DNA from: Janibacter sp. HTCC2649
GTDB taxonomy: Bacteria; Actinomycetota; Actinomycetes; Actinomycetales; Dermatophilaceae
Assembly (NCBI RefSeq): GCF_000152705.1
Contig: NZ_CH672413.1
Span: forward strand, 2,732,139-2,796,138
Direction of reading: 5' to 3'
DNA length: 64,000 bases
Below the pieces are notes generated by a model that was given only the letters and a program-made list of their open reading frames with translations, was not told where the DNA came from and did no database searches. Each line of letters opens with the position of its first letter. Position 1 is the stretch's first letter. A program made the position numbers and the translations under genes. Below, in pieces: positions 1,612-63,712 of this stretch.

Positions 1612-4385
1612 CGCGCTCTCACCTGTCGCAGCCTTTCGATGAGGGAGGCGTCCCCACTTCCGTCCTCGGACGGCGCCTGCGAGGACGCGATGACCCCGAG
1701 GAAGACCTCCTCGAGATGGCGGCGGCTACCCACTCCGACGACGTCGGCGCCCGAGGCGACGAGCTCGCGCACGACCTCTTCGCGAGGTCGGTCGGACACG
1801 ACCGTGAGGGTCGGCTTCGACGGGTCGTCGACCAGTTCAACGGAGCGTATGCCGTCCATTGCCGCGAGCGCGGATCGTGCCGGTTCCAGCGCACCGACCG
1901 AGGCGAACTCGAAAACCGTGGTGTCGTCGCTCGAGAGCAGATCGCTGACCGGCCCAGCCGTGACGACCTTGCCGGCGTGCATGACGACGACATGGCTGCA
2001 GGTCAGCTCCACCTCGGCGAGCAGGTGACTGGAGACGACGACGGTCCGGCCAGACGCGGCATACGACTGCAGGATCGGTCGCATCGCCGCGATCTGGGGC
2101 GGGTCGAGACCGTTCGTCGGCTCGTCGAGGAAGAGGACTTCGGGTCGGCCGAGCATGGCCTGGGCTATGCCGAGGCGCTGCTTCATGCCGTGGCTGTAGG
2201 TCCGGACCGGTCGGTCGAGGGCGCCGCCGAGCGCGGCTACCGAGAGGGCTTCGTCGATCTCGGCCTCTTCGGCGGGGCGTCCGGTGGCAGCCCAGAAGGC
2301 GTCGAGGTTCTCGCGACCGGTGAGGTGGGGGAGGAAGCCGGGACCCTCGACGAGGGCGCCCACGCGGCTGAGGACCTCCGAGCCCGGGTGCACCGGTCGA
2401 CCCAGGACATGCACCGACCCCGAGTCGGGCGTGATGAGGCCGAGCATCATCCGCATCGTCGTGGTCTTCCCGGCACCGTTGGGCCCGAGGAGCCCGACCA
2501 CCTGGCCGCGTTCGGCCCGCCACGACACGTCGTCGACGGCGCGGTGCCCGTCGGCGTAGGTCTTGACGAGGCGGTCGACGACGAGCGGGATGTCGGCGTA
2601 GTCCTCGCGCACCACCTCGCGCTGTCGACGACGGCGCCGCAGCAGTGCCGACCCGGAGATCCCGACAAGCAGAGCGAGTATGCCGCCGGTGAGAGCAAGG
2701 GACTCCGTGTCGCGTTCCGTCGTGGACGGGAGGATCGTGCCGTCCGCCGTGGGCAGCGTGAGGGAGGGCGTGGCCAAGGTGATCCGGTCGGCACGCGCTT
2801 GCCGAGGAACGGTGAAGGCGTTGTCCGTCGACGTGACGAGCACGCGCCACTGGCTGCCCGCCGCCATCGACCAGACCGACGATGGCAGGTTGACCGTGAC
2901 GTCCGTGGCCTTGCCGGGCGTCAGCGCCACCCGGACCGGGGCGGTGAGAGCCCGTTGCTGGACGGCGTCGGTACCTTCCACCCGCCAGAGGGAGACGAAC
3001 AGCGTCGCCTCGGTGCCTGTGGACGTGACCTGGAGCTTGACCGTCGGCGTGCCGACAACGGTCAGCGAGCGCGACAAGGTGGCGGTGTCGAACGCGGCCG
3101 ACATGCCGGGCAGGGCGGCAAGCCGATAGGTCGGCAGCTGAAGGTTGCCCAGGCCGGGGATCGAAGTCATCGAATTCGGTTGTCCCCCAGGTGGTGTGAG
3201 GACGACGGACGGTTCGGTGGGAGTGCGCAACGGGACCTGTTCGATGCCGCCGTGCAGGCCGGGGTAGGTGTCCAGGGTCGCGATCGGTGCGGTGTCGCTG
3301 TTGCGTGGGACGGGCAGTGAGTAGGTGAACGCCGGCACCGGAAGCGGATCGGTCCGCGTGCCCTTGAGATAGGTCCGGATCCAGGTCCGGGCGGCGTCCT
3401 CGTCGAGCGCGGGGTTCGAGGAGACGCTGTCGTGCCCGCCGTCGGTCCAGCGCACGGCGTGACGCGTGCCCTTGGCGGCCAGGCTCGCGGCGTTGGCGTC
3501 GGCCTGGTCGAGCCCGAAGAGGGTGTCCGCCTCGCCCTGGACGAGGAGGGTCGGTGCCGTGACCCCAGCGATCGTGGCGCGAGGACTGTTGCGACGCAGG
3601 GTCGCCGCGAGCGCGGGGCTGGGACCGCCGGACTCTGCCGCCGCCTGCAGCTCACCGCAGAGCGTGAGGTCGAAGCGGCCACACAGGACATCGGAGGGCT
3701 TGGCCGGCGCACTCCCGACGGAGGCGACGCTCGCGGTGAAGAAGCGGGTACCCCACAGCTGCTTGTAGGGGCCGGGTGTCGTGCTGCCCTGCGCCGCCTG
3801 GGGGAAGAGTGCCGTCGACAGGTCGTTCCAGGTGATCGCCGCGACCGTGGCATCGACTCGCTGGTCCGCGCCCGCGAGCATCAGCGCGAACGCGCCTCCG
3901 TAGGACGCGCCGACCACGGCGACGCGAGGGTCCTTGTCGCCGTCCTTGCGCACCTCGGCGCGCGCGGCGAGGAAGGTGAGCAGCGCTGCACCGTCACGGA
4001 CCTCGTAGTCCGGTGAGTTGAGGTGAATCCTGCCGCCGGAGCGACCAAAGCCTCGGGCCGAGAAGGTAAGGACGACATTGCCGTCCGCTGCGAACTCCTT
4101 CGCCTGGGCGACGACACTCTCCTTGCTGCCACCGAAGCCGTGCGCGAGCAGGACCGCCGGATGCGGACCGGTTCCAGCGGGCAGGTAGAGACGAGTGTCC
4201 AGCCGGACGGCGCTGCCATCGGCCTCCGCGCCGACATCGACGAACTGGTCCGTCGTCGTCACGGCCGGTTCAGCAGTCGCAGCCGGTGCGGACACCGCAG
4301 GGCCAGCGAGAGCGACGAGACCTGCCAGTGAGAGAGCAGCAGCGGTCGCGATGAACCGGCGAGGAGGTCGAACGAGCCGCTGCAT
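1608..4385 (-). CDS. Secreted S15-like alpha/beta hydrolase fused through one TM helix to an ABC ATPase
   Basis: 925-residue two-enzyme fusion. Residues 1-38 form a signal sequence (basic start, hydrophobic 11-30, Ala-rich end). Residues about 45-340 are an X-Pro dipeptidyl-peptidase/CocE-type hydrolase with nucleophile Ser161 (GASYGG), Asp287 (GEADTLF) and His318 (GGHDS); 345-545 resemble the jelly-roll C-terminal domain of that family. A single TM helix (about 563-582) and an Arg cluster lead to a cytoplasmic ABC ATPase: Walker A GPNGAGKTT (634-642), signature SHGMKQR (731-737), Walker B VLFLDEPTNGLD. The predicted topology puts the hydrolase outside and the ATPase inside. It is coupled to the ABC-2 permease gene by a 4-bp overlap. 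Peptide or ester substrates are possible; function not established here. Confidence 0.8.
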   Translation of the reverse strand: MQRLVRPPRRFIATAAALSLAGLVALAGPAVSAPAATAEPAVTTTDQFVDVGAEADGSAVRLDTRLYLPAGTGPHPAVLLAHGFGGSKESVVAQAKEFAADGNVVLTFSARGFGRSGGRIHLNSPDYEVRDGAALLTFLAARAEVRKDGDKDPRVAVVGASYGGAFALMLAGADQRVDATVAAITWNDLSTALFPQAAQGSTTPGPYKQLWGTRFFTASVASVGSAPAKPSDVLCGRFDLTLCGELQAAAESGGPSPALAATLRRNSPRATIAGVTAPTLLVQGEADTLFGLDQADANAASLAAKGTRHAVRWTDGGHDSVSSNPALDEDAARTWIRTYLKGTRTDPLPVPAFTYSLPVPRNSDTAPIATLDTYPGLHGGIEQVPLRTPTEPSVVLTPPGGQPNSMTSIPGLGNLQLPTYRLAALPGMSAAFDTATLSRSLTVVGTPTVKLQVTSTGTEATLFVSLWRVEGTDAVQQRALTAPVRVALTPGKATDVTVNLPSSVWSMAAGSQWRVLVTSTDNAFTVPRQARADRITLATPSLTLPTADGTILPSTTERDTESLALTGGILALLVGISGSALLRRRRRQREVVREDYADIPLVVDRLVKTYADGHRAVDDVSWRAERGQVVGLLGPNGAGKTTTMRMMLGLITPDSGSVHVLGRPVHPGSEVLSRVGALVEGPGFLPHLTGRENLDAFWAATGRPAEEAEIDEALSVAALGGALDRPVRTYSHGMKQRLGIAQAMLGRPEVLFLDEPTNGLDPPQIAAMRPILQSYAASGRTVVVSSHLLAEVELTCSHVVVMHAGKVVTAGPVSDLLSSDDTTVFEFASVGALEPARSALAAMDGIRSVELVDDPSKPTLTVVSDRPREEVVRELVASGADVVGVGSRRHLEEVFLGVIASSQAPSEDGSGDASLIERLRQVRAR

Positions 4386-4514
4386 GGCTCATCCTCTCCC
4401 GACGGAGTCCGCTGAGCCGCACTGCGTCATCCGCACAACCGATCGAACGCTTCGGCACCCCGAAGTGGTTCCGCAGCGCGTGCCCGACCCGTGCGACCAC
4501 ACGCGCCAGCCGGG

Positions 4515-5927
4515 TCAGGCCTCGAGGGTCCGGTCGAACAGCTCGCGCACATGGTTCGGCAGGGCCGGCTCCTGGATCGTCAGGTCCAGCGGCGGGAGGT
4601 CGCAGGTCACTCCGTAGCAGAAGCGGTCCGGCTGGGTCCGGCCCCCGGCATACGCCTGAAGTTCCGGCGTGGGACCGGCGAGGAGGCTGCGCCAGGCGGA
4701 CGCGTCCGTCTCGGACAGCTCGTCGAGGGCGACCGTCTTCTCGCGCACGATCCCGGCAAGGCCTCCGGTGCGTCGCACCTGCACCTGGCTCGGCGCACCG
4801 GAGGGCGCAGGGGCAGGGGTCGGAGTGGGCGACGGCACGGGTGTCGGCTTCTCGGCACCCTTCGTGACACCCACTTCGGACCACGCGTTGCGCACGGCGG
4901 CGACCTCCGGGGAGTCCTCGCCGTGGGCGGAGACAGCGGCCTCCTCGGTGAGCGCCGCGAAGGTGGTGAAGTCACAGTCCGCCTTGATGTCACCGGTGAT
5001 CGCGGCATACCAGATGGCGCCGGCGGCGTCCCACGCGTTGCCGCCGAGCGCTGTCGCGACGAGGTGGAACGCGCGGTTGGGGATGCCGGAGTTGATGTGG
5101 ACACCACCGTTGTCGTCGTCGGTGACCACGAAGTCGTCCATGTGCCCGGGCTGGGGGTCCTTGCCCAGGCGCGGGTCGTCGTAGGCGGTGCCGGGCGCCT
5201 TCATCGAGCGCAGGCCCACACCCTTGATGCCCGGGGCGAGCAGCTCGGCACCGATGATCCAGTCGGACTGCTCGGCACTCTGCCCGAGGGCGCGCTGCTT
5301 GACGAGGATGCCGAAGACGTCGGAGACGTGCTCATTGAGGGCACCGGCCTGGTCCTGGTAGTTCAGCCCCGACGTGTACTGCGTGACCCCGTGGGCCAGC
5401 TCGTGCCCGATGACGTCGAGGCTGCGGGTGAACCCGAGGAACACCTCGCCGTCGCCATCACCGAACACCATCTGCGACCCGTCCCAGAACGCGTTGTCGT
5501 AGTTGGAGCTGTAGTGCACGCTCGCAATGAGGCCGAGCCCCTTGTCGTCCAGGGAGTTGCGCGCGTATGCCGCGTGCCACAGTTCCCAGGTCGCGCCGAG
5601 TCCGTCGTACGCCTCGGTGACCGCGACGTCGTCCGTGGCCGGCTCTCCCTCGGCGCGCACCCGGGTGCCGGGCAGGGTCGTCCCGTTCTTGGCGTCGTGG
5701 ATGAGCCGGTTCGGTGCATCGGTCGTCGCCCGGTTGGCGCGCCGACTCGCGGCCGTGCCACTGGCGCGCAGGGCGTGCTCGCGGGCGTGCTGCTCGTAGC
5801 GGAGCTGGTCGATGCGCAGCGTCTCGCGGGCGCGTTCCTCGACCGCCGGGTCGCCCGAGGCCGCCAGGGCCTGGAGCAGATAGGGCGGCACGATCGAGCA
5901 GAGGTGCGAGGCCGGGTTCGTCGTCAT
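4515..5927 (-). CDS. Protealysin-like M4 metalloprotease with C-terminal emfourin-like domain
   Basis: Zinc metalloprotease of the thermolysin family, 470 residues. There is no signal peptide; the N-terminus carries PPYLLQALA (14-22), like the short propeptide of protealysin-type enzymes. HELAH (175-179) gives two zinc ligands, Glu199 (NEHVSD) the third, and His277 (GGVHINSG) matches the catalytic His. After a Pro/Thr linker (361-380) comes a roughly 90-residue module (RRTGGLAGIVREKTV...RFCYGVTC) resembling emfourin, the proteinaceous inhibitor usually encoded by a separate gene next to protealysin-like proteases. That reading is from pattern recognition. The enzyme may act in the cytoplasm or leave by a non-classical route. 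It sits where gyrB is expected beside DUF721. Confidence 0.8.
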   Translation of the reverse strand: MTTNPASHLCSIVPPYLLQALAASGDPAVEERARETLRIDQLRYEQHAREHALRASGTAASRRANRATTDAPNRLIHDAKNGTTLPGTRVRAEGEPATDDVAVTEAYDGLGATWELWHAAYARNSLDDKGLGLIASVHYSSNYDNAFWDGSQMVFGDGDGEVFLGFTRSLDVIGHELAHGVTQYTSGLNYQDQAGALNEHVSDVFGILVKQRALGQSAEQSDWIIGAELLAPGIKGVGLRSMKAPGTAYDDPRLGKDPQPGHMDDFVVTDDDNGGVHINSGIPNRAFHLVATALGGNAWDAAGAIWYAAITGDIKADCDFTTFAALTEEAAVSAHGEDSPEVAAVRNAWSEVGVTKGAEKPTPVPSPTPTPAPAPSGAPSQVQVRRTGGLAGIVREKTVALDELSETDASAWRSLLAGPTPELQAYAGGRTQPDRFCYGVTCDLPPLDLTIQEPALPNHVRELFDRTLEA

Positions 5928-6608: not shown

Positions 6609-7797
6609 GCGCGGTCACCTCGCCCAGCGACACGGCATACGTGCGTCCACGCAGTTCGGACGGCACGTCCGCCTCGACAGCGGCAGTGATGAGGACCTGC
6701 TCGCAGTCGGCGACCATCGCCGCGAGCCGCTCGCGCCGGCCCGCGTCGAGCTCGGCAAAGACGTCGTCGAGGATCAGCACCGGGTCGTCGCCGAGATCGT
6801 GACGGAGCAGGTGGTATGCCGCGAGCTTGAGCCCCAGCGCGAACGACCAGCTCTCGCCATGGCTGGCATAGCCCTTGGCCGGCAGCTCGCCGAGGGTGAG
6901 GACGACGTCGTCGCGGTGCGGACCCACCAACGTCACCCCGCGCTCGATCTCCTGGCCACGCACCTCGGCGAACGATGCCAGCAGCTCGGCATGCAGCTCC
7001 TCGAGCTCCGGCACCTCGCCAGCAGCGATCCGGCCCGCGAACTCCTCACGCAGGGACGCCTTGTAGCTCACCCGCGCATCGGACTGCCCAGCACTGACCT
7101 CGTCATAGGCCTTGCCGAGCAGGGGCGCGAGGTCTCGCAGCAGCCGCAGCCGGGCATAGAGCAGGGGAGCGGCCACCTGGGCGAGCTGTGCGTTCCACAC
7201 ATCGAGCGTGTGCAGCGCGGCCTCCCGCTCCGAGACCGTGTCCACCCCCTCCACCGGCCGACGTTGCTTGCCCCGACCGCGCAGCACCGGCGCCGCTGAC
7301 TTCAGCAGAGCGTTGCGTTGCTTGAGGATGCGGTCGTAGTCGCCGCGTGCCCCAGCCCACCGCGGCTGCCGCGCCACGAGCAGGTCATCCAGGAAACGAC
7401 GCCGCTCCGACGGGTCACCCTTGACGAGCGACAGGTCCTCGGGCGCGAACAGCACGGTCCGGACCTGCCCCAACACGTCGCGGGTGCGGGTCAGCGGCGA
7501 CTTGTTGAGTCGCGCCCGGTTCGCGCGGCCGGGCGTGATCTCGAGCTCGACCAGGGTCTCGCGACCATCACGGACGACGGCGCCGCGGATGATCGCCTGC
7601 GCCGCTCCGAACCGCACGAGCGGCGCATCGTTGGCCACCCGGTGCGAGGACAGTGACGCGAGGTAGCCGATCGCCTCGACGAGGTTGGTCTTGCCCTGTC
7701 CGTTCAGGCCGACGAACGTCGTGATGCCCGGCTCCAGCGGGAGCTCGGCGCTCGGATAGCTCCGGAAGTCGCCGACGGTGAGGTGCCGGACGTACAC
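6601..7797 (-). CDS. recF: DNA replication and repair protein RecF
   Basis: 398-residue SMC-like ATPase that helps load RecA at single-strand gaps with RecO and RecR. It starts [15 protein letters not shown], typical of RecF; Walker A is GLNGQGKTN (about 30-38); the motif [19 protein letters not shown] lies near 125; the C-terminal ATPase half has [15 protein letters not shown] with Walker B. The length is normal for the family. It lies nine bases after gnd and overlaps DUF721, so the three are likely co-transcribed. Confidence 0.95.
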
Positions 7798-8962: not shown

Positions 8963-9000
8963 AGGTATGCCGGGTGCTCACCTGCGTGAGCGGCATACCT
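8963..9000 (-). terminator. Hairpin built from two inverted copies of the GTATGCCG octamer, after dnaN
   Basis: AGGTATGCCG at 8963-8972 and CGGCATACCT at 8991-9000 form a perfect 10-bp inverted repeat. The loop contains a second inverted repeat (GCTCAC/GTGAGC around CTGC). It lies 43 nt after the dnaN stop codon and 70 nt before gnd, so it may terminate or attenuate dnaN transcription. Confidence 0.7.
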
Positions 9001-9042: not shown

Positions 9043-10176
9043 TCAGCTCGCGAATCGCACCGGCATGATGACGTAGCGATAGCTGGTGTCGGCCTCGCCG
9101 TCAGCCTCGGCCTGACCGCTGAGGACGGCCGGACGCGACGGCTGGGTGAACGAGAGCCTGCTGAACTCGGTGCCGACGGCGCCGAGGCCATCGAGCAGGA
9201 AGCCGGGGTTGAACGCGACCTCGACATCGGGGCCGGTCAGGGTGGCCTCGACGGCCTCGCTGGCCTGGGCGTCCTCGCCGGTGCCGGCCTCGATCGCGAC
9301 CTGGCCCTCGGTGAAGCGCAGCCGGACGGGGGTGTTGCGCTCGGCGACGAGGGCCACACGCTTGACGGCCTCGACGAGCTCGGCGGTGTTGACGACCGAC
9401 TCCGTCTCGGAGGTCGTCGGGAAGATCGAGCTGACCTTGGGGTACTCACCGTCGAGCAGGCGAGTGGTCGTGCGGCGGGAGCCGGCCTCGAAGCCGACGA
9501 GACCGTCGCCACCCGCAGCGGAACCGAGCGCGACGTCGATCGAGCCGGAGGCGCCGAGCGAGCGGGCCGTGTCGGCGAGGGTGCGGGCCGGGACGAGAAC
9601 GATGTGGCTCGCGGCGCTGTCGGTGGGGTTCCACGTGAGCTCACGCATGGCCAGGCGGTAGCGGTCGGTCGCGAGGAGCGTCATCTTGTCGCCCTCGATC
9701 TCGACACGGACGCCGGTGAGGATCGGCAGGGTGTCGCCGCGGTCGGCCGCGATCGAGACCTGGTTGACGGCCTGGGTGAACAGCTGGCCATCGATGGAAC
9801 CACTCGGCTCCGGCGACGACGGCAGCGTCGGGTAGTCGTCGGAGGGCATCTGCAGCAGGCTGAAGCGGCTCGAGCCACACACGACCTGGACCTTGGAGCC
9901 CTGCACCTCGACGTCGACTGGCTTGTTGGGCAGGTTGCGGGAGATGTCAGCGAGCAGACGGCCGAGCACGAGCACGGTTCCGGACTCGGAGACCTCGGCG
10001 GGCACGGTCAGACGAGCGGACACCTCGTAGTCGAAGGCCGAGAGGGTCACGGTGCCTTCGTCGTTCGCCTCGATGAGGATGCCGGCAAGGACGGGCACGG
10101 GAGGGCGCGCAGGAAGTCCGCGGGCGACCCAGGTGACCGCCTCGGCCAGGACTTCACGCTCGACGCGGAACTTCAC
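9043..10176 (-). CDS. dnaN: DNA polymerase III subunit beta (sliding clamp)
   Basis: 377-residue clamp that tethers polymerase III to DNA. It has the usual three-domain beta fold length and begins VKFRVEREVLAEAVTWVARGLPARPPVPVL, a typical clamp N-terminus; the C-terminus ends YRYVIMPVRFAS, the conserved MPVR motif. The GTG at 10176-10174 is chosen because it begins the conserved KFRV sequence; the longer open frame upstream crosses the origin. It stands next to oriC, co-directional with dnaA. Confidence 0.95.
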   Translation of the reverse strand: MKFRVEREVLAEAVTWVARGLPARPPVPVLAGILIEANDEGTVTLSAFDYEVSARLTVPAEVSESGTVLVLGRLLADISRNLPNKPVDVEVQGSKVQVVCGSSRFSLLQMPSDDYPTLPSSPEPSGSIDGQLFTQAVNQVSIAADRGDTLPILTGVRVEIEGDKMTLLATDRYRLAMRELTWNPTDSAASHIVLVPARTLADTARSLGASGSIDVALGSAAGGDGLVGFEAGSRRTTTRLLDGEYPKVSSIFPTTSETESVVNTAELVEAVKRVALVAERNTPVRLRFTEGQVAIEAGTGEDAQASEAVEATLTGPDVEVAFNPGFLLDGLGAVGTEFSRLSFTQPSRPAVLSGQAEADGEADTSYRYVIMPVRFAS

Positions 10177-10888
10177 GGCATACCGACCTAACTGTGTTTT
10201 GGGCTGCAACAGGCACAACAACGTTTGAGGACCGCGAAGCGCCGGGCGCCAGGAGGCGCAGGCAAGCGGGAAAGATGACATTAGTGCACGGAAGTGAGCG
10301 GGGACACCCGAGTCGGATGTTGTCATTCGCCGGGCTCCTGGGCGGCATTCCACAAGCAGGTCCTCGGGGCAGAACAATTGATAGGGGGATCTCGTCAGAG
10401 TTGTAGGAGGTGTGGATCCTGTGGACAACTCACTGTTTGTGCAGGTCAGCGACCCATCGGGGCGGTGGACGAGACGTGGACGGCGTGTGGAGGAATGACA
10501 CCCGCCTGTTGACGGCCACGTGGCCTTTCTGACTCGTCCACGGCGAGGACACCTCTCGTCCACCCCTCTGGGGCGGTTGTCCACAGTTGTCCACAGGGAT
10601 TGGGGACAACCGGCCAATTCTCTTGATCCCCAGGTTGTCCACAGAGGAAGTTGTCCACAGAGTTCTCCACACACCGTGGACGAGGGCGTCCCGGAGCCGT
10701 GCGGCTGCACCAAGGTGACGAACGGGTGACGAGGTGCCCACAGCTGTGGATCAACCTGTGGACAATCTTCTTGGTAACCGCACTTCGTCCCCCGGACGGA
10801 CAAACGAAAGTTCGTCTTCGTGCCCTGCACGGACCTGCTCGCTGCCCTCGCACGTCCGTGCGGGGCACGAAGACGGAGGACCAGGTTG
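10177..10888. other. oriC: Chromosomal replication origin oriC (dnaA-dnaN intergenic region)
   Basis: Gene-free 712-bp interval rich in DnaA boxes. Perfect TTGTCCACA or its complement occurs at 10420-10428, 10577-10585, 10587-10595, 10635-10643, 10651-10659 and 10757-10765. One-mismatch boxes are at 10602-10610 (TGGGGACAA) and 10663-10671 (TTCTCCACA). Two looser half-matches, TGTGGATCC (10411-10419) and TGTGGATCA (10745-10753), lie beside perfect boxes. A relatively AT-rich stretch near 10367-10386 could be the unwinding site. The dnaN promoter must also lie here. Confidence 0.93.
10813..10875 (-). terminator. Family A hairpin, single copy (A2), after dnaA
   Basis: Arms 10813-10834 and 10854-10875 (22 bp, one mismatch) carry CTTCGTGCCCTGCACGGAC and GTCCGTGCGGGGCACGAAG. 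It starts 13 nt after the dnaA stop on the minus strand and is the same family as the hairpin at 685-750. Confidence 0.65.
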
Positions 10889-12455: not shown

Positions 12456-12840
12456 TGATCACCCGTACCTTCCGTGTCATTCGTGCGTGAAACCGAGGAT
12501 GTCCACAGAGTTGTCCACAGACTGTGGGTATGCGCAGTGACGCTAACAAGGGGGTGAGCCCGCGGCAAGCCGAAACAGTCTGCGGAGCCGTCACCTGCCT
12601 GTGCGCCCCGCGTGTCGTGCCAGATCCTGACACCGTGAGGTGAGAGCATAGGCGGTTCTTCGCTGCACGCGGGCTTTCTCCGGCGAGTTTGACCCGGTAT
12701 GCCGCCCTCACGTACCTTTGACACGCCTGTTGTGGCGGCCGTTGACGCCTGCCCACAGCCTCTGAACCAGCACGACCCAACACGCCCCACACCATCCGGT
12801 TTTTGTCCGTATGGGTCCGTCCCGTGAGAAGAGATTCACC
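12456..12840. promoter_or_regulatory. Divergent dnaA/rpmH promoter region with DnaA boxes
   Basis: Gene-free 385 bp. A perfect TTGTCCACA (12511-12519) and a one-mismatch box ATGTCCACA (12499-12507) lie 44-64 nt upstream of the proposed dnaA start, consistent with DnaA autoregulation or a second part of the origin. TTTGACACG at about 12717-12725 could be a -35 for rpmH, but I see no convincing -10. One GTATGCCG octamer lies near 12695. Confidence 0.6.
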
Positions 12841-12978: not shown

Positions 12979-12985
12979 GGCTTCG

Positions 12986-13351
12986 GTGCTGCCGGCGCCG
13001 AACCGACTGCGTGAGCGGTCGGATTTCGCGTCGGCGATCCGTTCCCCTGGTGCGATGCGAGCGGGATCGAGAATCCTTGTGGTGCACGCCAACGTGACCG
13101 ACTCTCGTGCGGGTTTTCCGCCGCGGGTCGGTTTCGTCGTGTCCAAGGCCGTCGGCAACGCGGTCGTTCGCAACCGGACCAAGCGCCGACTGCGCGCCGC
13201 GATCGCGACCGAGCTGACCGGCATACCCACGGGTCTTGACGTCGTGGTCCGAGCGCAGCCGGCAGCTGCCAGCGCGACGTTCGCAGAGCTGTCTGAATCG
13301 CTGAAACCGTTGTTGCACAAGGTTATTCGCCGTTTTGAGGTCGCCTCATGA
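12986..13351 (+). CDS. rnpA: Ribonuclease P protein component
   Basis: 121-residue protein cofactor of the RNase P ribozyme for tRNA 5' maturation. It starts at GTG (VLPAPNRLRERSDF), the typical N-terminus; the family RNR signature is VGFVVSKAVGNAVVRNRTKRRLR. The stop overlaps the yidD start by four bases (ATGA). GGCATACCC inside the gene uses the rare Ile codon ATA and is part of the octamer family described in the findings. Confidence 0.95.
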   Translation: MLPAPNRLRERSDFASAIRSPGAMRAGSRILVVHANVTDSRAGFPPRVGFVVSKAVGNAVVRNRTKRRLRAAIATELTGIPTGLDVVVRAQPAAASATFAELSESLKPLLHKVIRRFEVAS

Positions 13352-13641
13352 CGATCGGTCAGGTTGCTGCCAAGCCCCTCGTGTGGCTCGTGCGCGCCTA
13401 CCAGCTGGTCGTGTCACCCATGCGCCCGGCGACCTGCCGCTACTTCCCCTCCTGCTCTGCGTATGCCGTGACCGCCCTGGGTCGGTACGGCGTGTTCAAG
13501 GGAACCTGGCTCACGCTCCGGCGGTTGGGCAGGTGTCACCCTTGGGCGGCCGGCGGGGTCGACCACGTTCCACCTCTGCCCGGGGAACTGGATGATGGCG
13601 AGCTCATCGCTCGGCACATCCCCCACGAGACCACCACCTGA
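13348..13641 (+). CDS. yidD: Membrane protein insertion efficiency factor YidD
   Basis: 97 residues with the conserved motif PATCRYFPSCSAYAVTAL and the Gly/Arg-rich end RRLGRCHPW near residue 65. YidD-family proteins associate with the inner membrane and assist YidC. Coupled to rnpA by a 4-bp overlap and followed by yidC. Confidence 0.93.
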   Translation: MTIGQVAAKPLVWLVRAYQLVVSPMRPATCRYFPSCSAYAVTALGRYGVFKGTWLTLRRLGRCHPWAAGGVDHVPPLPGELDDGELIARHIPHETTT

Positions 13642-31077: not shown

Positions 31078-32672
<1,595 letters not shown>

Positions 32673-38239: not shown

Positions 38240-38258
38240 TCCCGTATGCCGCCGACGC

Positions 38259-51453: not shown

Positions 51454-54400
51454 ATGAAACGCACTTCACGTCGGGTGGCGGGGTCGCCGCGGGGGCGCCG
51501 GGGGATTGCTTCCATCGGTGTCGTCGCCGTGGCGGCGTCGATGCTCACGTATGCCGCCGTGACCAGCCAGGGCTCGACCGTTCACGAGGCCGACGTGGGC
51601 GATGGCGGAGTGTGGGTCTCCTCGTCGGCGCAGGCGAAGTTCGCGCGACTGAACACCCAGGCCCGTCAGCTCGACGCCGGCGTCTCGACCGCTCTCGCGG
51701 ACGGCTCCAAGGTCGACATCCTCCAGGACGGTGCCGCCGTCGTCGGCGTCGCAACCGGCAACACCTTGCTGCCGATCGACGTCCGGACGGCCACCTCCGG
51801 AGAGTCCGGTGCGTCGGCCCCCGTGCGGCCCTCGAGTGACGCGCCGACGTTCTCCCCGCCGACCGTGGACCTGCGGGGCGGCACGATCGCCACGGTTGAC
51901 CCCAAGACCGGCAAGGTGTGGGCCCAGCGCGTCGACACCAAGGACGGCATCGAGTCGCTGCAGGACATCACGACGACGGCCAAGCCCTTGGCCACCATCG
52001 GCGGCAACGCCTCGGTCGCGGTCGACCTGTCCGGCAACGTCATTGCGGCATCGGGCAAGACCGGTCGCGTCGTGACGATCGCACCGCGCGGCAAGGCCAT
52101 GGCCAAGCCCGTGACCGTGACCACGAGCGTGCGGGCCCCCCTTCTCGACATCACTGCGGTCGGCGACACGTGGGTCCTCTACGACCCCACCAAGGACGAG
52201 CTCCACGTCGAAGGACGTGACGAGCCGATCAGTGCCGGTGCAGCGCTCGGTGCGGGTGCGGCATACGCGGCACTCCAGCAACCCGGCCCGGAATCCGACT
52301 CGGTGATCATCGCCAACATCGCCGCTGCCCGCCCCGTCAAGCTCAGTGGCGGCGCCGGAGTCGGTGGCGTCGAGGTCCAGGAGCAGGGCAACCGTTCGGT
52401 CGACCCGCCCCTCGTGACGCGTCCTGTCGTCCTACGCGGGTGCGTTCATGCTGCGTGGGCCGAAACGGGCAACGTCTTCTATGGCGCGAACTGCGGCCGC
52501 AGCACCCCCGTCGCGGCGGGCACCCTCGCCGGTGGCGGAAAGGGCGTCGTCCGTGACGGCGTCGCGCTCCGCGTCAACCGCGGCAACATCGTCCTCAACC
52601 ACCTCGACACGGGTGACGTGTGGGACCTCGACTCGACGAAGCAGAAGATTGACAACTGGGATGCGCTGATCCCGCCGACCAAGAAGGACGACGACAACGA
52701 CAAGAAGGACGAGAACGTCGTTGACGACCAACAGGTGAGTCAGCCGCCCAAGGCCATCGACGACCCGCTGCGGGTCCGCCCCGGTCGCACGAGCAAGATC
52801 CACCCGCTCGACAACGACACCGACGCCAAGGGTTCCATCCTGGCGATCGACCCCAAGGACCTCACCGCGCCGAGCGCGACGGATGTCACGGCCACGGTGT
52901 CGAGCGACGGCCAGACCGTCGACGTCAATGTGCCGCCCAACCCGTCGGCGTCGACGATCACGCTCTCCTACAAGGTGAGCAACGGCAAGGCCAAGGAGAA
53001 GTCCGGCGCCAAGATCATCCTCACCGTCGTCGGCGACGACATCAACACTCCGCCGAAGCTGCGTGAGGGCCAGGCCGAGCTCGCCAAGACGACCTATCCG
53101 GTGGTCTCCGGTGGACGTGTCGCAGCGTCCGTCCTCGGCGACTGGCGGGACGGGGAGAACGATCCGCTCACCGTCGACGGCATCGACCCCAAGACGGTCA
53201 TCGACGGGCAGAACCGGGTCGGGATCACCGCGCCCAACGAGGCCGGCCCGGCGAGCGTCGAGTACGCCATCAACGACGGACGCCAGAGCACCAAGGGCAA
53301 GGTCGACCTCACCGTCCTCGACCTCTCGGACCCCAAGGCGGTGCCGCCCAAGACCCAGCCCGACGTCGTGCGCGCCGTCCTGGGCAAGCCGGTCCAGCTC
53401 GAGCCCCTCGGCAACGACATCCCCGGTGCCGACCCCGGCGATCCCGACGCGCGCCTGCGGCTCGCCGGCGAGGTCGCACCGTCCGGCCCTCTCGACGTCG
53501 ACACCAACCTCACCACCGGCGTGGTCACGATCACCCCGAACGGGCTCGGGACAACCGAACTGGCGTATGCCGCCCAGTCCGGCGGGACGGTGGCTCCCGG
53601 TCGCATTCGGATCGACACCGTCGAGCCCGCGGACCCCGAAGCCCCGCCCGTGGCCGTTCCCGACGGTGCGACGCTGCGTGACCAGTCGCCGACGATGGTC
53701 GACGTCCTCGCCAACGACTACAGCCCGCGCGCGGACGTCGTCGTCACCCAGAGCGCCACGGTCAGCGGCGACAACACCTGGCTGCGACCGACGATCTATC
53801 AGGGTCGATGGGTGCGCATCGAGGCCCTCGAGCCGTCGCCCATCAGCGGCGAGGGAAGTCGCCAGGGCACGGTCGAGTACACGATCAGCGACGGCAGCAA
53901 GCGCACGACAGGACGGATCAACGTCGTCCAGCGTCCACCGCTTCCGGGCGCGTCCCCGACCGTCGAGGACGACCGTGCCAACGTGCGTGAGGGCGACAGC
54001 GTCTCGGTCGGCGTTCTCGACAACGACACCATGGCCGACGGCATCCCCCTGGTCCTCGACCCGGGCAGCGTCAAGGTCATCGGCGGTGGCGAGGCGCGGG
54101 CGTTCGCGTCGGGCAACCTCATCCGCTACGTGCCGGAGTTCAAGGCCCTGGTTGCGCCCAAGGACGTCGTCATCGAATACGCGGCGTATGCCGAGGGCTC
54201 ACCCGAGCGCGCGAAGACCGGCCGGTTGACGGTCACCGTCAACCCCCTCCCGACCAAGGCGACGCCCAACCAGGCGCCGATCGCCCGCAGCTTCTCAGGG
54301 TCCGTGACCGCCGGCGAATCCGTCACCCTGACCATCCCGTCGACAGGGGTCGACCCCGACGGTGACACGGTGACGATGCGCGGCATCGTCGGCAAGGACG

Positions 54401-57400
54401 CCGACGCTCTCGACCTCAAGTTCGGTCGCGTCGTCTCGATCGGTCCGTCGACCATTCGCTACGAGGGTTATCCGAACGCTGCCGGGACCGAGCTCATCCG
54501 CTACGAGGTGCAGGACCGCTTCGGCGCCACGAGCCAGGCGTTCGTGCGGGTGGGTGTGGTGCGCCCCGGCGACCCGCAGCCGCCGGTCGCCGTCGAGGAC
54601 GAGGTCGTCGCGGCACCGGGCAAGAAGGTCACCGCCCACGTCCTGCGCAACGACCTCATCGCCCGCGGCGACGCCGTGCGCATGGAATACAAGGACCTCA
54701 ACCCCAGCGACGTCCAGCGGCAGTGGACCGTCAACGAGGACGAGGACTCGATCTCGACGATCGCGCCCGAGCCGACCGCACCGACGCACGAGTTCGTCTA
54801 CGGCATCGACAACGGCATCTTCGACCCGTCGCGCACGACCGTCCTCGTGCGTGGGGTCAAGGGCTACATCAACCCGCCCATCGCGCAGGACGACGTCGCC
54901 AAGGCCACGCCGGGCGAGACGACCTCGCTCGTCGACGTCCTCGCCAACGACACGGACATCGACTCCGACCCGGCCACCCTCAAGATCGTCGAGGTCCTCT
55001 CACCCCAGGGCAAGATCGAGAACGGCAAGGTCCGCGTCACCCTGCTCGACCACCCGCAGACCGTTCCCTACGTCATCGAGGACGACGACGAGGCCCGCGC
55101 CCTGGCCCTCATCTACGTGCCCGCGGGCGACAACGGTGTCCCGTTCGTCGTCGAGGGCACGCTCATCGAGATGGACAAGGACTCGACCACGTCGGTCAAG
55201 CTCGCCGACCACGTGAAGTCCCCGCGTGGCAAGGCCATCAGCATCACTGCCGCGGCCACGGTGTCGGCGTCGCCCGGCGAGTCCGTGTCCGCCCAGGCCA
55301 ATGGTCGCGCCGAGGTCACCCTGACGTCCCGCGGCGGCTACATCGGCCCCGGCGCCCTGATGCTCGAGGTCAGCGACGCGGAGAACGCGAACGACAAGGA
55401 CGCGCGGACGGCATACGTGTCGATTCCGATCCAGGTGGGACCCAAGGTCCCGCTCCTGCGGTGCCCCGACGCGGCCCTCGTCCTCGCCGCCGGTGGACGT
55501 GCGCGCGAAGTCGACATCCCCACCTACTGCCGTGCCTGGCTGCCCGTCGGCATGAACCTCGACGAGGTGAAGTTCGAGGCGAAGTGGGACCCGCAGGCCA
55601 AGGGTGCCAACCTCGAGCAGGCCGAGACCGGTGGTCGACTCGTCAGCCTCAGCGCCGGTGAGCGCGCCCCGAGCGGCACCGGTTCGGTGACCGTGACGTC
55701 GAAGGGTATGCCGCCCGTCAAGTTCGCCGTTCGTGTCCTGGGCCGTGAGTCGGACGCTGACGCAGCGGCAGCTGCTGCGGCCGCCGGCAAGGATGCGGCC
55801 GCCGCCGCTCTGGGCCCGCCGCGCCTGCGACCCATCAAGGTCGACGGCCTCAACGAGGGCGAGTCGGAGTCGGTGGACGTGAGTCGCTACCTCGACTCTC
55901 CGCTCGAGAAGCCGTCCTGCTCCATCATGGCCGCCGCGCTCGAGAGCGGCACCGGCATCGAGGTCTCGCGCAGTGGGTGCACCCTGACGTTGAAGGCGAC
56001 GAAGCAGCCGAGCCCCACCGCCACGATCTCGCTGCTCGTGTCCGACGGTCCGGGTCGCCAGGCCGCGGGTCGCGTCACCGTGACGATGCGCGGCATACCC
56101 ACCGCGCCAACCAACGTGAGTGCCGTGGCCGACCGCATCGCCGGCGGCCAGGCTCGCGTGTCCTGGGTTGCGCCGAACTATGACGGTGGCGTCACCATCT
56201 CCAACTACAAGATCAGGTGGAGCGGTGGCAGCACCGGGACCCTCGACTGTTCCGCCTCTCCGTGCACCGTGACGGGCCTGAAGAACGGTCTGGACTACAC
56301 GTTCACCGTCATCGCGACCAACGCGGTCGGCGACAGCCCCCCGAGCGCGGGGAGCAACACGGTCCGGCCCGACACCAAGCCCGAAGCCACCTCTGGTGTG
56401 CGGATGGTGTCTCGCGGTGACGGGACGCTCAACATCGCCTGGTCGCCCGCCCCCAACAAGGGCTCGCCGATCACCAAGTACATCGTTCGCCTCATCCCGA
56501 CGAGCTCGGGTTCTGCGCCACGCACTGTTCAGGCAGCCGGTGGGGCGACGAACACCACGGCCAGCGGACTCACGAACAACACGCCCTACTCCGTCGCGGT
56601 CCAGGCGTGGAACGGCGCGGGTGCCGGACCCTTCGGGCCCGCGGTGGAGATGCAGTCCGCGGGCATCCCGCCGGCGGTCACCGGCGTCAACGGTGCGACC
56701 CGAGGACCGGGAGCGGGCTACGACTCCGAGTCGGTCACGGTCTCCTGGAACCAGCAGACCAACCCCAACGGTCCGCCGCTGAAGGGCTACACGATCTATC
56801 GCAACGGGGCCCGGATCGGCAACGTCGGTGCCCAGACGCGCACCTTCGCCGACACCATCCCCTACGACGGCAACCGTTACAGCTACACCGTCACGGCCAC
56901 GAATGGCGCCGACCTCGAGTCGCCCCAGGGCAACCCCTGGACCTACACGTCCATCGGAGTGCCGAGCAACCCGTCGGTGAGTGCCGAGACGCCGGATGCG
57001 GACAAGTCGGTCGTCATCCACGTCGCCGTCGGCCAGCCGCGCGCGGGTGCCTTCCAGTCCATTCAATGGCGCGGTGGCGGCAGATCAGGGACGCACGCGT
57101 GTGGCTGCACCCCGGGGACCACGGTGACGTTCAAGGTGGCGAACATGGGCATCGACCCCCTGACGATCAAGGCCAAGACCGTCAACACCGGCGGTCGCGA
57201 GTCCGCCGAGGGTGAGAGTGGCAGTGTCACCCCCTATGGCGACACCCTCACCCCGACGGGCCTCAGCGCTTCGGTGAGCGGACGGACCATCACGTGGCGC
57301 TGGGACCTCCGGACCAACGGACGCCCCATCGACGACGTGCAGGTCAGCATCGATGGCGGTGGGTGGCGCGCCCCCGACAACCGGCAGAGTCACGCCCAGA

Positions 57401-57810: not shown

Positions 57811-58044
57811 TCACTCGATGATGGCGAGGATGTCGCCCTCCTGGACGACATCACCGACCTCGACCTTGACCTCGGTGACGGTTCCTGCCTGCTCGGTGAG
57901 GACGGGGATCTCCATCTTCATCGACTCGAGGAGCGCGATCTCGGCGCCCACCTCGACGGTGTCGCCCGCGTGGACGGCGATGGTGAGGACATTGGCGACG
58001 AGGTCTGAGACGACGTGGTGCGGCATACCCGCGACCGTATCCAT
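57811..58044 (-). CDS. Biotin/lipoyl attachment carrier protein (BCCP-like)
   Basis: 77 residues made of a single biotinyl domain; the acceptor Lys lies in LLESMKMEIPVL. It closely resembles the free-standing mycobacterial protein Rv3221c. It would be a mobile carrier for an acyl-CoA or other carboxylase encoded elsewhere. Convergent with giant gene 2, 24 nt apart. ATG at 58044 or 58026 (MPHHVV) could be the start; neither has a strong ribosome-binding site. Confidence 0.88.
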   Translation of the reverse strand: MDTVAGMPHHVVSDLVANVLTIAVHAGDTVEVGAEIALLESMKMEIPVLTEQAGTVTEVKVEVGDVVQEGDILAIIE

Positions 58045-58231: not shown

Positions 58232-59086
58232 ATGCATTGCCGCTCCTGCGGAGTCGACCTGCCTCGCGACGCCGTCTACTGCCTGCGGTGTGGCGCGCGC
58301 GTCGAGCTCGGATCCGTCCTCGGCGTCGGCACTGACCTGCCCCCCGTGCCCCCGCGCAACCAGCCTGCACCCGCCCCGGAACCCGTCGACGAGCCACTCG
58401 CCGATCCGGTCACCGAGTCACGGTCCGCGCCGGCACGAGCTCACGAACCAACGCCCCCGGAAGACCTCACCAAGACCGCGGAGCTGCCGCGACCCCAGGC
58501 GCCGCCGGTTGCGCCGCCACCAGCACCATCAGCGCAGTCGTCCCCGCCGCAGGCCCCACCCGCTCAGCCGGCGACCGGCACCACCACCGGTGGATCCGGA
58601 CACTCACGCACCAGCATCATGGCGATGGTGGCGACCTTCGTCCTGTTGACCATCATCGGGACCTTCGCGCTGACCCGCATCTTCGGCTCCGACGACCCCG
58701 AGCCCACCGCCGTGGCTCCCCCGGTCACCAGCGAAGAGGGTGACCCCTCGCCGTCGGCCTCGGCCGCTGAGCCCAGTGCCTCGACCACGCCAGAGGCACC
58801 GCCGAGCCCGAAGACGAGCGCTGCCTCCATCCCCGCCGGCGCACGCCAGTGCTCCACGAGCGGAAGCGACTCCGTCGCCACGGCGTATGCCGCGACCGAA
58901 CGGACGTCCTGCGAGTTCGCCGCCGCTGTGCGTGAGGCCTACCGCAAGGCCGGCACCCCCGACGGTGCGACGACGTTGCGCGCCTTCAGCCCGGTGACGA
59001 AGAAGTGGTACTCGCTGTCCTGCGACGGCGGGGCGCCGGTGCGTTGCACCTCGACGACGAACGCCGTCGTCCTCCTTGCCCCCTGA
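58232..59086 (+). CDS. Zinc-ribbon membrane protein 1
   Basis: 284 residues. An N-terminal zinc ribbon (MHCRSCGVDLPRDAVYCLRCG; Cys 3, 6, 17, 20), then LGVGTDLPPVP, a Pro-rich cytoplasmic linker, one TM helix (about 127-150, IMAMVATFVLLTIIGTFALT), a Ser/Pro/Glu stalk and an extracellular module with four Cys (ARQCSTS, RTSCEF, YSLSCDGGAPVRC). AAGGA ribosome-binding site. Paralogue of the next gene. Function unknown; a sensor or assembly factor is possible. Confidence 0.8.
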   Translation: MHCRSCGVDLPRDAVYCLRCGARVELGSVLGVGTDLPPVPPRNQPAPAPEPVDEPLADPVTESRSAPARAHEPTPPEDLTKTAELPRPQAPPVAPPPAPSAQSSPPQAPPAQPATGTTTGGSGHSRTSIMAMVATFVLLTIIGTFALTRIFGSDDPEPTAVAPPVTSEEGDPSPSASAAEPSASTTPEAPPSPKTSAASIPAGARQCSTSGSDSVATAYAATERTSCEFAAAVREAYRKAGTPDGATTLRAFSPVTKKWYSLSCDGGAPVRCTSTTNAVVLLAP

Positions 59087-59103: not shown

Positions 59104-59814
59104 ATGCACTGCGGATCGTGTGGAGCCGATCTGATCCCGGACGCGCGCTTCTGCACGCGCTGCGGCGCCAGGGTCGAGCTCGGCTCGCTCCTCGGTGTCG
59201 GCACGGACCTTCCGCCGGTGCCCGCCCAACCTCCCGTGGCGACTGAGCCCCAGCCGGTCGCGCCGACCGAGGGCCACCACGGTCCCGGCGGCAACTTCAC
59301 GCCGGGTCGCATCGCCGCCATGGTCGCGACCTTCGTCGTGCTCACCATCCTCGGAACGTTCGTCCTGAGTCAGCTCTTCGGCTCCGACGTGGCTGACGCA
59401 CCGAACTCTGCCGCCACCTCCGCGAGCACCAGCGCGGGCCCGGACACCGCGAGCCCGTCAGGTGAGCCGTCGCCCGAGCCGAGCCCTTCGGAGTCGAGCA
59501 CGCCAGAGCCGAGCACCCCAGAGCCGAGCGCGTCACCCACCTCGACCACGGCGTTACCCGCGGGTGCCCGGCGATGTTCCCAGGGCGGCAACGATCCGGT
59601 CGCGACGGCATACTCCGGCAACAAGGACACGTCCTGCGCGTTCAGCAACGCGGTCCGCAAGGCCTACCGCGAGGCGGGCGCGGCGACCGACCCCAAGCCG
59701 TTCCGCACCTACAGCACCGTGACCAAGCGCTGGTACGACGTCACCTGTGACACGGCCAGCCCGGTCCGGTGCCAGAGCGCCGACGGTGCCGCCGTGGTGT
59801 TTCTTGGTCCCTAG
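59104..59814 (+). CDS. Zinc-ribbon membrane protein 2
   Basis: 236 residues with the same design: zinc ribbon (MHCGSCGADLIPDARFCTRCG), LGVGTDLPPVP, a shorter linker, TM helix (about 69-90), Ser/Pro/Glu stalk, and the four-Cys extracellular module (ARRCSQGG, DTSCAF, YDVTCDTASPVRC). It begins 17 nt after its paralogue, so they are an operon ended by the terminator that follows. Confidence 0.8.
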   Translation: MHCGSCGADLIPDARFCTRCGARVELGSLLGVGTDLPPVPAQPPVATEPQPVAPTEGHHGPGGNFTPGRIAAMVATFVVLTILGTFVLSQLFGSDVADAPNSAATSASTSAGPDTASPSGEPSPEPSPSESSTPEPSTPEPSASPTSTTALPAGARRCSQGGNDPVATAYSGNKDTSCAFSNAVRKAYREAGAATDPKPFRTYSTVTKRWYDVTCDTASPVRCQSADGAAVVFLGP

Positions 59815-61020: not shown

Positions 61021-61108
61021 GATGGTGTTCTCCTTCTTCTTGTGTGTGCCGTCAATCGGCGTATGCCGTGTGGCTCGGTTGGTCTTGCGGGGCAGGTCCG
61101 TCAGCCGG

Positions 61109-62682: not shown

Positions 62683-62713
62683 GGTATGCCGTCCGGCGTG
62701 CCATCGTTTCGTC

Positions 62714-63712
62714 GTGCCCTTCGATTCCGCCACGTCCGCAGAGTTGAGCCCCACCGCCCGCGCCCTGCTCACCCTCGAGGTGCTGCAGAACCGGCCCGGG
62801 GTCACGGCCGGCGAGCTGGCTCGCCGGTTGGGGGTGACCGAACGCGCGACGCGACGACACATCGCGATCCTGCGTGAGGCCGGCATACCCGTCGAGTCGA
62901 TGCGCGGACCGCACGGCGGCTACACGTTGGGTCGCGGCGCGGCCCTCGCCCCCGTCGTCTTCACCGAGACCGAAGCGCTCAGCCTCGTCATGGCCGTCAT
63001 CGACAGCCACCCCAGTGCCGCGAGCGCGACCGGCGCCGACGGTGAGGCCGACGCGGTGGGCTCCGCGCTCGACAAAGTCGTCCGGGCCCTGCCCCGGGCC
63101 GCCGGTCGAGAAGCCGCCGCCTTGCGCGAGCACGCCTGCGCCACACCGGATCGCTACCCGAGGCGGCCGGACCCGGCCACGACGAGCGCCCTCGTGGCCG
63201 CGAGCGCCGACCGCCACCAGGTGCGCATCACCTACGGCAGCGAGTCCGGCAAGACCTGGGAGGACGTCACCGATCCGTGGGCGGTCGTCGTCCGGCACAC
63301 CCGCTGGTACCTCCTGTGTCGCTCGCACCGGGCCGACGCCGTGCGCACCTATCGGATCGACCGGATCCGCGAGGTCGTCGACCTCGACGAGAGCTTCACG
63401 CCGCCGGCCGACCTCGACCCCGTCAGCTCCCTCGAGGAGCACCTCGGGATCGGCTGGGAGTTCGAGACGCGGGTCGTGTTCGACGTGTCTCTCACGGAGG
63501 CACAGCGGTGGGTGCACCCGGCCATGGGAGTCCTCGAACGGCATACCGACGGCTGTGTTCTCGTGGGCAGCACGAGCAACCCGACGATGTACGCCAGGGA
63601 GTGGCTGGCCCGCATTCCGCTGCCCCTGCGGGTCGAGGGCGGGCCGGAACTGGTCGACGCCATGAGGTTGGTTGCCGCGCAGTTGCAGGCCGCTGTGGCC
63701 CCCACCACCTGA
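62714..63712 (+). CDS. YafY-type HTH and WYL-domain transcriptional regulator
   Basis: 332 residues. HTH_11-type winged helix (LLTLEVLQNRPGVTAGELARRLGVTERATRRHIAILREAGIPVES), then the WYL core (VRITYGSESGKTWEDVTDPWAVVVRHTRWYLLCRSH...RTYRIDRIREVVDLDESF) and a C-terminal WCX extension. It probably controls the divergent hydrolase. The GTG at 62714 opens the conserved sequence. Longer starts lie in the promoter of the divergent gene. Confidence 0.88.
   Translation: MPFDSATSAELSPTARALLTLEVLQNRPGVTAGELARRLGVTERATRRHIAILREAGIPVESMRGPHGGYTLGRGAALAPVVFTETEALSLVMAVIDSHPSAASATGADGEADAVGSALDKVVRALPRAAGREAAALREHACATPDRYPRRPDPATTSALVAASADRHQVRITYGSESGKTWEDVTDPWAVVVRHTRWYLLCRSHRADAVRTYRIDRIREVVDLDESFTPPADLDPVSSLEEHLGIGWEFETRVVFDVSLTEAQRWVHPAMGVLERHTDGCVLVGSTSNPTMYAREWLARIPLPLRVEGGPELVDAMRLVAAQLQAAVAPTT

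Follow-up and report, generated by a model that had tools for sequence, protein, structure and literature searches.

A probable DNA uptake sequence in Janibacter and its relatives, with a Flp/Tad-type competence apparatus as candidate reader

The octamer GTATGCCG is greatly over-represented on both strands of a 64,000-nt stretch of the genome of Janibacter sp. HTCC2649 (the window), and is probably, with a likelihood that we put at about 0.8, the core of a DNA uptake sequence (DUS) in an Actinomycetota uptake system that works on a Flp/Tad competence apparatus. The hallmarks of DUS and of uptake signal sequences (USS) that we tested at the sequence level are present in genomes that use GTATGCCG, and are patchier in genomes that use other dialects of the word. 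The original prediction, made from the letters of the window, had named uptake sequences and the cyanobacterial element HIP1 as parallels; we prefer uptake to HIP1 because of the dialects, an extended flank, hairpins at gene ends and a gap over a genomic island. Published systems are compared below through excerpts of the papers cited by PubMed Central (PMC) number.

Abundance and sharpness of the octamer

The window holds 54 exact copies, 29 reading GTATGCCG and 25 reading its reverse complement CGGCATAC (the word is non-palindromic), where 2.3 are expected from base composition and 1.2 from an order-2 Markov model. This agrees with the roughly 54 copies against about 2 that had been predicted, at positions that prove correct to within 2 bases; the 26th CGGCATAC claimed is a 7-bp variant. 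The whole genome (an assembly of 4,235,068 bases, the largest contig having 4,221,782) contains 2,982 octamers, 1,486 and 1,496 on the two strands, or 0.70 per kb of 4.235 Mb. The reversed word, our control, occurs 35 + 24 = 59 times.

Finer statistics come from a 504-kb sample of the same genome, consisting of the window and 22 stretches of 20 kb. One stretch (L052), which overlaps another (L024), was excluded from the own-genome counts of codon shuffle, strand, pairs and spacing, hairpins, flank, position by orientation and mismatches, and was included in the sampling of top 8-mers and in the dialect codon shuffles. The sample has 333 perfect octamers, compared with 13.4 expected under an order-3 model, while the 24 single-mismatch words sum to 318 and show no excess over the expected 328.6. 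The consensus is sharp: perfect copies are in excess and near-misses are not. A sharp consensus is described as an unusual attribute common to uptake sequences, and a strong core whose perfect copies exceed single-mismatch copies relative to chance is shared with the USS of Pasteurellaceae (PMC1626085). Ranking 8-mers against an order-6 Markov model, as the original prediction had suggested, leaves the octamer outside the top 12 of the window. At this order the octamer inflates its own inner words, and lower orders, the reversed word and the codon shuffle are therefore the fairer comparisons.

Codons, strands and spacing

High-GC genomes contain many strong k-mers, and the octamer might accordingly be an artefact of codon usage or composition. 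We shuffled synonymous codons within the 428 genes of the 504-kb sample, preserving proteins and codon usage, a procedure preferred to a full dicodon model because the latter would absorb the octamer itself. The shuffle yields 22.6 ± 4.5 genic octamers, compared with 259 observed, which bears out the earlier claim that selection on codons or proteins is insufficient. Moreover, rare codons are forced by the octamer, which contains 28 of the 53 ATA (Ile) and 111 of the 448 TAT codons of the same genes. The same shuffle finds no excess of a variant word, GTACGCCG, in Cellulomonas (11 vs. 10.6). For GTATGCCG in the Janibacter genome a codon artefact is refuted by the shuffle and by the reversed word (59 vs. 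2982), and as a general account of the system an artefact is next to impossible.

The origin was taken to lie between the dnaA- and dnaN-like genes at about 10.5 kb of the window, from sequence motifs by our own reading, and the terminus opposite to it. With respect to replication, the leading strand has 168 copies and the lagging strand 165 (binomial p = 0.91, 333 copies), so the predicted lack of strand preference around oriC holds, and with respect to genes 137 are sense and 122 antisense. The excess is thus explained neither by codon usage nor by the strand of replication or of the genes. A high-copy octamer held at conserved places could also be a chromosome-handling signal, acted on by RecBCD/AddAB/AdnAB like Chi or by FtsK like the FtsK-orienting polar sequences (KOPS). 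The Chi and KOPS sites known so far have a strand bias, whereas this octamer has none, and the head-to-head hairpins past gene ends that are described below are unexpected for such a signal; as the original prediction had argued, a role of this kind is very unlikely.

The 333 copies divide into 259 inside called genes, 67 outside and 7 spanning an edge, with densities of 0.59/kb inside and 0.99/kb outside, all of which depend on our own gene finder. Spacing between copies is approximately random (coefficient of variation 0.98), and a claim of even spacing was therefore dropped. Intragenic position depends weakly on orientation (Mann–Whitney p = 0.04), an effect that is not used as evidence.

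A degenerate flank beside the core

A degenerate flank accompanies the core from about −12 to +45, mostly downstream. Controls were matched for codon phase and taken from the same genes, or were nearby non-coding positions. In the genus of the Janibacter strain (6 genomes, n = 427), T occurs at +18 in 37% of copies vs. 12% of controls (χ2 = 268) and at +36 in 26% vs. 12%; A occurs at −9 in 24% vs. 10% and at −8 in 31% vs. 18%, and is avoided at +8 (1% vs. 17%); further preferences are for T at +24 and +42 and for C at +14, +16 and +33. The same tendencies are seen in 84 non-coding copies, which lack a matched control and partly come from hairpins, and other genera that use GTATGCCG (n = 396) share T at +18 (21% vs. 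10%) as well as C at +14 and A at −8. No flank position exceeds the threshold around a different octamer that is frequent in the own genus (n = 143). The T preferences of the own genus at +18, +24, +36 and +42 are spaced by multiples of six and all fall on the third base of a codon in the most frequent frames; this spacing may reflect helix phasing or codon freedom.

Like Pasteurellaceae USS, the octamer has no orientation bias, carries flanking motifs on its 3′ side and varies in type by subclade. The flank differs in having spaced T, A and C positions rather than two AT-rich blocks, and Neisseria DUS are described in the same source as having no flanking motif (PMC1626085). A flank with spaced T positions would fit a bent protein–DNA complex, and together with the greater density outside genes this could point to a binding site for an abundant nucleoid or regulatory protein. 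However, the consensus of regulatory sites is relaxed (PMC1626085), and here the single-mismatch words have no excess, 259 of the 333 copies lie inside called genes and the association with tad-1, described below, would go unexplained; we regard such a binding site as quite improbable.

Hairpins at gene ends and an octamer-poor island

An uptake sequence is also suggested by the arrangement of copies. Among 855 GTATGCCG sites, close pairs (a gap of up to 30 between octamers) are head-to-head in 13 cases, 11 of them intergenic, tail-to-tail in 6 (2 intergenic) and tandem in 6. In the Janibacter genome all 7 head-to-head pairs are intergenic, lie 21–68 bases beyond a gene end and have perfect stems of 8 to 18 base pairs. 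The pair at 8965–8998 of the window could form a terminator-like hairpin; the gene 9043–10176 on the reverse strand, DnaN-like by our own reading, stops 44 bases before it. Genomes that use the dialect GGATGCCG (144 sites) have 3 head-to-head pairs, of which the 2 intergenic ones are hairpins built from their own word, with stems of 16 (genome G024) and 13 (G033). Inverted DUS pairs are found at terminators in Neisseriaceae (PMC3630211).

The Janibacter chromosome between about 148.6 and 220 kb (~71 kb; L012–L015) has 5 octamers, compared with ~49 expected (Poisson 1e-15, for a single island that was selected after the gap had been noticed). Its genes include those for a coupling protein of TraG/TraD type, a TrwC relaxase and a transposase, and the island is apparently of conjugative type. 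Integrative and conjugative elements of Neisseriaceae have been detected via their DUS profile (PMC7371117). Further open reading frames (ORFs) of the island resemble metal transporters by eye.

Relatives, dialects and the history of sites

GTATGCCG was counted in the Janibacter genome and 116 others; G060–G070 were counted for this word only, as were G071–G116 except for five that were redrawn in the phylum survey below. All 8 other genomes of the genus are rich in the octamer (1,971 to 3,277 copies). The 62 other genomes of the family (Intrasporangiaceae/Dermatophilaceae) range from background to 4,724, and the 46 genomes from other families of the order have at most 167 copies each. The family was assigned from the nearest named DnaA matches (a Tetrasphaera sp. 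metagenome-assembled genome at 80%, Janibacter at 74–75% and Knoellia koreensis at 74%), a set that may miss the closest records. The presence in relatives, which the original prediction had proposed to check, therefore extends to many genera of the family, with others at background.

Several family genomes are rich in a one-letter variant instead, the changes falling at four positions of the octamer. GTATGCCG, GTACGCCG and GGATGCCG were counted in whole genomes and the other variants in samples of 14–60 kb. With the reversed control in brackets, GTACGCCG reaches 2,216 (143) in G030, 1,359 (167) in G031, 3,903 (310) in G047 and 2,618 (161) in G055, and GGATGCCG reaches 3,816 (392) in G024, 3,949 (289) in G033 and 2,195 (207) in G051. 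In samples of 20–60 kb, GTATGACG leads in G034 and is common in G011 and G012, GAATGCCG is found in G020 and G058, and GTATGCGG in G027. The codon shuffle supports the dialects of G030, G047, G055, G024 and G033 and, on small numbers, those of G051, G034, G027 and G020. Each genome has one main dialect, with mixtures of two in G051, G020 and G034. In a tree of 52 genomes, which leaves out G022 and G026 (too little shared sequence), the GGATGCCG genomes occupy two separate, fully supported places. G026, where the shuffle covered one gene only and GTACGCCG stands at 4.6 times control, was labelled motif-negative.

A short, abundant word with dialects and terminator-linked inverted pairs is also seen in Neisseriaceae DUS (PMC3630211). 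The dialects of that family differ by one or a few letters, and S. muelleri has two in one genome, as do G051 and G020 here.

An octamer that appears and disappears between genera, and that is abundant in and between genes, also invites comparison with HIP1 of cyanobacteria, an octamer with the palindrome GCGATCGC. A repeat of this kind could owe its abundance to an orphan methyltransferase or to an associated repair bias. Unlike HIP1, however, GTATGCCG is non-palindromic, and it has a one-sided flank of about 45 bases, hairpin pairs past gene ends and dialect changes at four positions; we know of no methyltransferase that recognises eight contiguous non-palindromic bases. We consider a methylation-linked repeat unlikely.

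Under the uptake reading, copies would be expected to persist where coding allows. Across 12 genomes with GTATGCCG, some of which also use another word, sites of the Janibacter genome are kept in 81 of 130 cases, with extremes of 2/10 (G020) and 6/7 (G002), whereas the identity of flanking 8-mers is 0.10 to 0.30. In G009, 0 of 19 such sites are kept and 1 of 19 is now GGATGCCG. The two dialects of G051 (L127, L226), with 1,217 copies of GTATGCCG beside its GGATGCCG, behave differently: 5 of 7 GTATGCCG sites are common to the Janibacter genome, which at the 9 GGATGCCG sites has GGATGCCG nowhere and GTATGCCG once. This looks as if G051 were in transition between dialects, its sites differing in age. 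Letter changes in place were considered as the main origin of dialects and rejected, being only occasional: changes to GGATGCCG were seen at 1/19 sites from the Janibacter genome (G000) to G009 and 2/9 from G046 to G024, and changes to GTATGCCG at 2/16 from G024 to G046 and 1/9 from GGATGCCG of G051 to G000.

Competence machinery

The Janibacter genome encodes ComEC and a ComEA that has SLBB and helix-hairpin-helix domains, and it contains three loci of Tad type. Two of these loci look like tad-1 (tadA-B-C, then tadE, tadF and tadG) and tad-2 (with flp) of Micrococcus luteus, which likewise has comEA-comEC (PMC4322843, PMC6370729). The assignment uses gene order and the TadE and TadF N-termini printed in PMC6370729, without alignment to the M. 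luteus proteins. Transformation of M. luteus requires the tad-1 and tad-2 genes, tadB excepted (PMC4322843).

ComEC is present in 57 of 60 family genomes (it is missing in G036, G040 and G041, all fragmented assemblies), and as a predictor it fails to separate motif-rich from motif-poor genera. A match to the tad-1 motor TadA is missing in 9 of the 60 genomes, seven of them motif-poor, the others being G054 and G004; by genus, 36 of the 37 motif-rich ones have such a match, as do 8 of the 15 motif-poor ones (Fisher p = 3e-4, for genus labels made by hand and a test that ignores descent). We also used a set of named genomes, with GTATGCCG counted in 16, GTACGCCG in 38 and TadA searched in 43. 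All 17 in which the counted word reaches at least 7 times control match tad-1 TadA at 56% identity or more, over the whole length in 12 and split or partial in 5, and the 9 of 43 without a match are all below 7 times for the counted words. As many tad-1 genomes lack the word, tad-1 looks necessary and not sufficient. The 51 tad-1 loci include TadE, TadF and TadG in 44 cases and Flp in 46; by-eye alignment of the tad-1 minor pilins among the matches listed gave no simple dialect-linked difference.

Two other candidates for the apparatus were dropped. The type IVa pilus marker PilM_2, unlike in Neisseriaceae, is matched in just 2 of the 60 family genomes (ComP itself was not searched). The class-A Tad motor (L051) was rejected as reader of the octamer since the motif-rich G002 and G003 have no match at class-A level.

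The tad-1 locus is itself interrupted in several genomes. The motor gene tadA is split, with its parts separated by 10 to 35 kb, in G006 (L211), G015 (L212), G035 (L213/L214) and G154 (Nocardioides furvisabuli), its parts lie on two contigs in G028 (L216/L217), and a single part was found in G008 (L215). The break is within the P-loop codons (residues ~200–206) in G015, G035 and G008, and serine recombinase genes (Pfam Resolvase and Recombinase) stand at the breaks of G015 and G028. Such splitting resembles the insertion of elements into competence genes reported elsewhere (PMC4774983). The tad-1 operon is also interrupted after tadC, by phage terminase and capsid genes in G055 (L061), by a recombinase-like ORF (by eye) in G057 (L234) and by other genes in G033 (L253) and G027 (L239). 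In G034 (L246) the locus is broken within flp, and foreign sequence runs to the contig end. The ComEC family match of the motif-poor G056 is in two pieces about 28 kb apart, and its comEC may be broken. Near the tad-1 locus of G033, an ORF at 3597–4658 of L082 consists of many 13-residue units (PDWQRQLFQKPLV).

The word beyond the family

GTACGCCG is abundant in 7 of 7 Nocardioides genomes, with 1,516 to 4,237 copies compared with controls of 147 to 192. Further high counts, again relative to control, are found in Actinopolymorpha rutila (3,828/282), Motilibacter deserti (2,137/268) and metagenome-assembled genomes (MAGs) of Frankiales (2,058/243) and Propionibacteriales (3,036/298), and less marked ones in a Nocardioidaceae MAG (713/115) and Catellatospora paridis (2,667/567); among the 38 genomes counted, Cellulomonas, Arthrobacter and others are lower. 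The codon shuffle, which beyond the family covered the fetched loci of Nocardioides, the Propionibacteriales MAG and Cellulomonas, gives 64 observed vs. 15.8 ± 3.6 in Nocardioides (7 loci) and 13 vs. 1.9 in the MAG.

A phylum survey counted GTAYGCCG in 396 genomes as raw ratios to control that include codon effects. Values of 9–12 times control are confined to 3 of the 5 own-family genomes drawn, to survey family f23 and to one genus of f24; some genomes of f5, f2, f21, f69 and f74 reach about 4–6 times, and elsewhere the ratio is mostly 1–3. Catellatospora paridis (G157), which has no tad-1 match, and family f21 have GTACGCCG or GTAYGCCG at about 2 to 5 times control, which may be codon-driven or a weak relic.

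Tentatively, with odds slightly short of even, GTAYGCCG could be an old self-recognition code of Actinomycetes that spans orders (Intrasporangiaceae/Dermatophilaceae, Nocardioides, Actinopolymorpha, Motilibacter) and is read by the Flp/Tad competence pilus with a new kind of receptor rather than by a type IVa pilus. Dialects would then have arisen in one-base steps, with genomes like G051 in transition, and mobile elements inserting at the P-loop codons of the motor gene would counteract the system.

Evidence that weighs against an uptake sequence

Several results weigh against the uptake reading, in addition to the dependence of intergenic counts on our gene finder, the hand-made genus labels and neglect of descent in the Fisher test, and the single island chosen after the fact. 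With respect to the machinery, G041 is motif-rich and has no ComEC match, and neither the motif-rich G054 nor G004, which belongs to the own genus, matches tad-1 TadA. ComEC, ComEA and tad genes also occur in many motif-poor genera; therefore the machinery alone does not predict the word. In Catellatospora GTACGCCG is at 4.7 times control, yet TadA is only 40% identical.

The remaining points concern the other dialects. GGATGCCG is weak in G009 at 1,336 (310), or 4.3 times control, and several genomes not classed as GGATGCCG reach 4–6.6 times by raw count, e.g., G019 with 827/126; on the other side, GGATGCCG is the top 8-mer in a 60-kb sample of G009 (33 vs. 7.3) and passes the shuffle there (38 vs. 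14.1). GTACGCCG in G031 is weak by shuffle (9 vs. 4.1). Retention of sites is low for GGATGCCG, with 3/14 and 3/10 between G024 and G033 and 0/4 and 0/6 between G009 and G051, and for GTACGCCG (0/7 to 3/8), which may reflect faster turnover or greater distance. Family genomes with GTACGCCG (n = 153) have a weaker flank, with T at +18 in 16% vs. 10%, and this position is under the threshold in the GGATGCCG sets (21% vs. 13%, n = 80; 15% vs. 11%, n = 54) and in a Nocardioides-type set (15% vs. 12%, n = 110). At +8 the two GTACGCCG sets have A even more often than the controls (31% vs. 19% and 28% vs. 16%). No hairpin pairs were found for GTATGACG (46 sites), GTATGCGG (16) or GAATGCCG (19), and GTACGCCG (263 sites) has 1 genic pair and 0 intergenic.

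A possible mechanism and its meaning

If the octamer is an uptake sequence, a DNA-binding subunit of the Flp/Tad apparatus would grip double-stranded DNA outside the cell at the octamer and its flank; candidates are a minor pilin of tad-1 or tad-2, or another surface protein. The pilus would pull the DNA inward, ComEA would receive it and ComEC would pass one strand. Homologous recombination would favour octamer-bearing alleles, so that copies accumulate and persist where coding allows. A shift of receptor preference by one base would let most old copies decay while new ones arise mostly elsewhere, producing dialects, and where uptake is lost the octamer would fade to background.

As judged from sequence, the system is probably a variant of DUS on Tad machinery in Gram-positive bacteria. 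It differs from Neisseriaceae DUS in its Actinomycetota host and unrelated word, and from Pasteurellaceae USS in organism, word and machinery. The resemblance to the Flp/Tad system of M. luteus also has its limits: the phrase ‘uptake sequence’ is absent from the M. luteus papers PMC4322843 and PMC12849477, whereas the Janibacter genome has thousands of copies of a candidate one. The original prediction knew of no uptake sequence described in this lineage, and we found none in the open-licence PMC literature, where titles and abstract openings contain no report of the octamer or of an uptake sequence of the lineage.

Uptake sequences have so far been textbook features of two Gram-negative families. 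If the reading is true, this would be a third case, in high-GC Gram-positive bacteria, in which recognition of self DNA evolved again on a Tad-type apparatus, with many dialects available for comparison; confirmed by experiment, it would provide the first ‘self’-DNA tag for the actinobacterial branch. It would also open to test a question about Flp in M. luteus, namely which subunit contacts DNA and how specifically. Natural transformability could be predicted for many genera, and a practical tag for transforming them would be at hand.

Individual copies in the window

The window copies are exact matches, placed relative to genes called by our own gene finder. Wholly within called genes are 37 of the 54; the other 17 are not. 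Copies outside called genes lie on the forward strand at 12697..12704, 13461..13468, 34882..34889 and, in tandem with the latter, 34906..34913, as well as at 38244..38251, 38636..38643 and 61061..61068, and on the reverse strand at 13219..13226, 26608..26615, 35103..35110, 39699..39706 and 63539..63546. The inverted pair mentioned above has its 5′ arm at 8965..8972 (forward) and its 3′ arm at 8991..8998 (reverse). Three copies coincide with gene starts: 10176..10183 (reverse) overlaps the start of gene 9043–10176 by one base, and the forward copies 15565..15572 and 42666..42673 lie at the starts of the called genes 15567–16178 and 42668–44992.

The remaining forward copies are at 1847..1854, 2678..2685, 5565..5572, 6814..6821, 21181..21188, 28700..28707, 31358..31365, 32747..32754, 34623..34630, 43681..43688, 45828..45835, 47130..47137, 47765..47772, 51549..51556, 53565..53572, 54186..54193, 55706..55713, 58885..58892 and 62684..62691. 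Those on the reverse strand are at 2057..2064, 4646..4653, 5003..5010, 6633..6640, 20902..20909, 22130..22137, 24251..24258, 29921..29928, 33026..33033, 44547..44554, 46652..46659, 48977..48984, 52259..52266, 55409..55416, 56091..56098, 58021..58028, 59606..59613 and 62881..62888.

Two adjacent ORFs of the window, 45079–51342 and 51541–57786, encode 2,087 and 2,081 aa with near-identical starts; perhaps the gene for a very large protein was duplicated in tandem.

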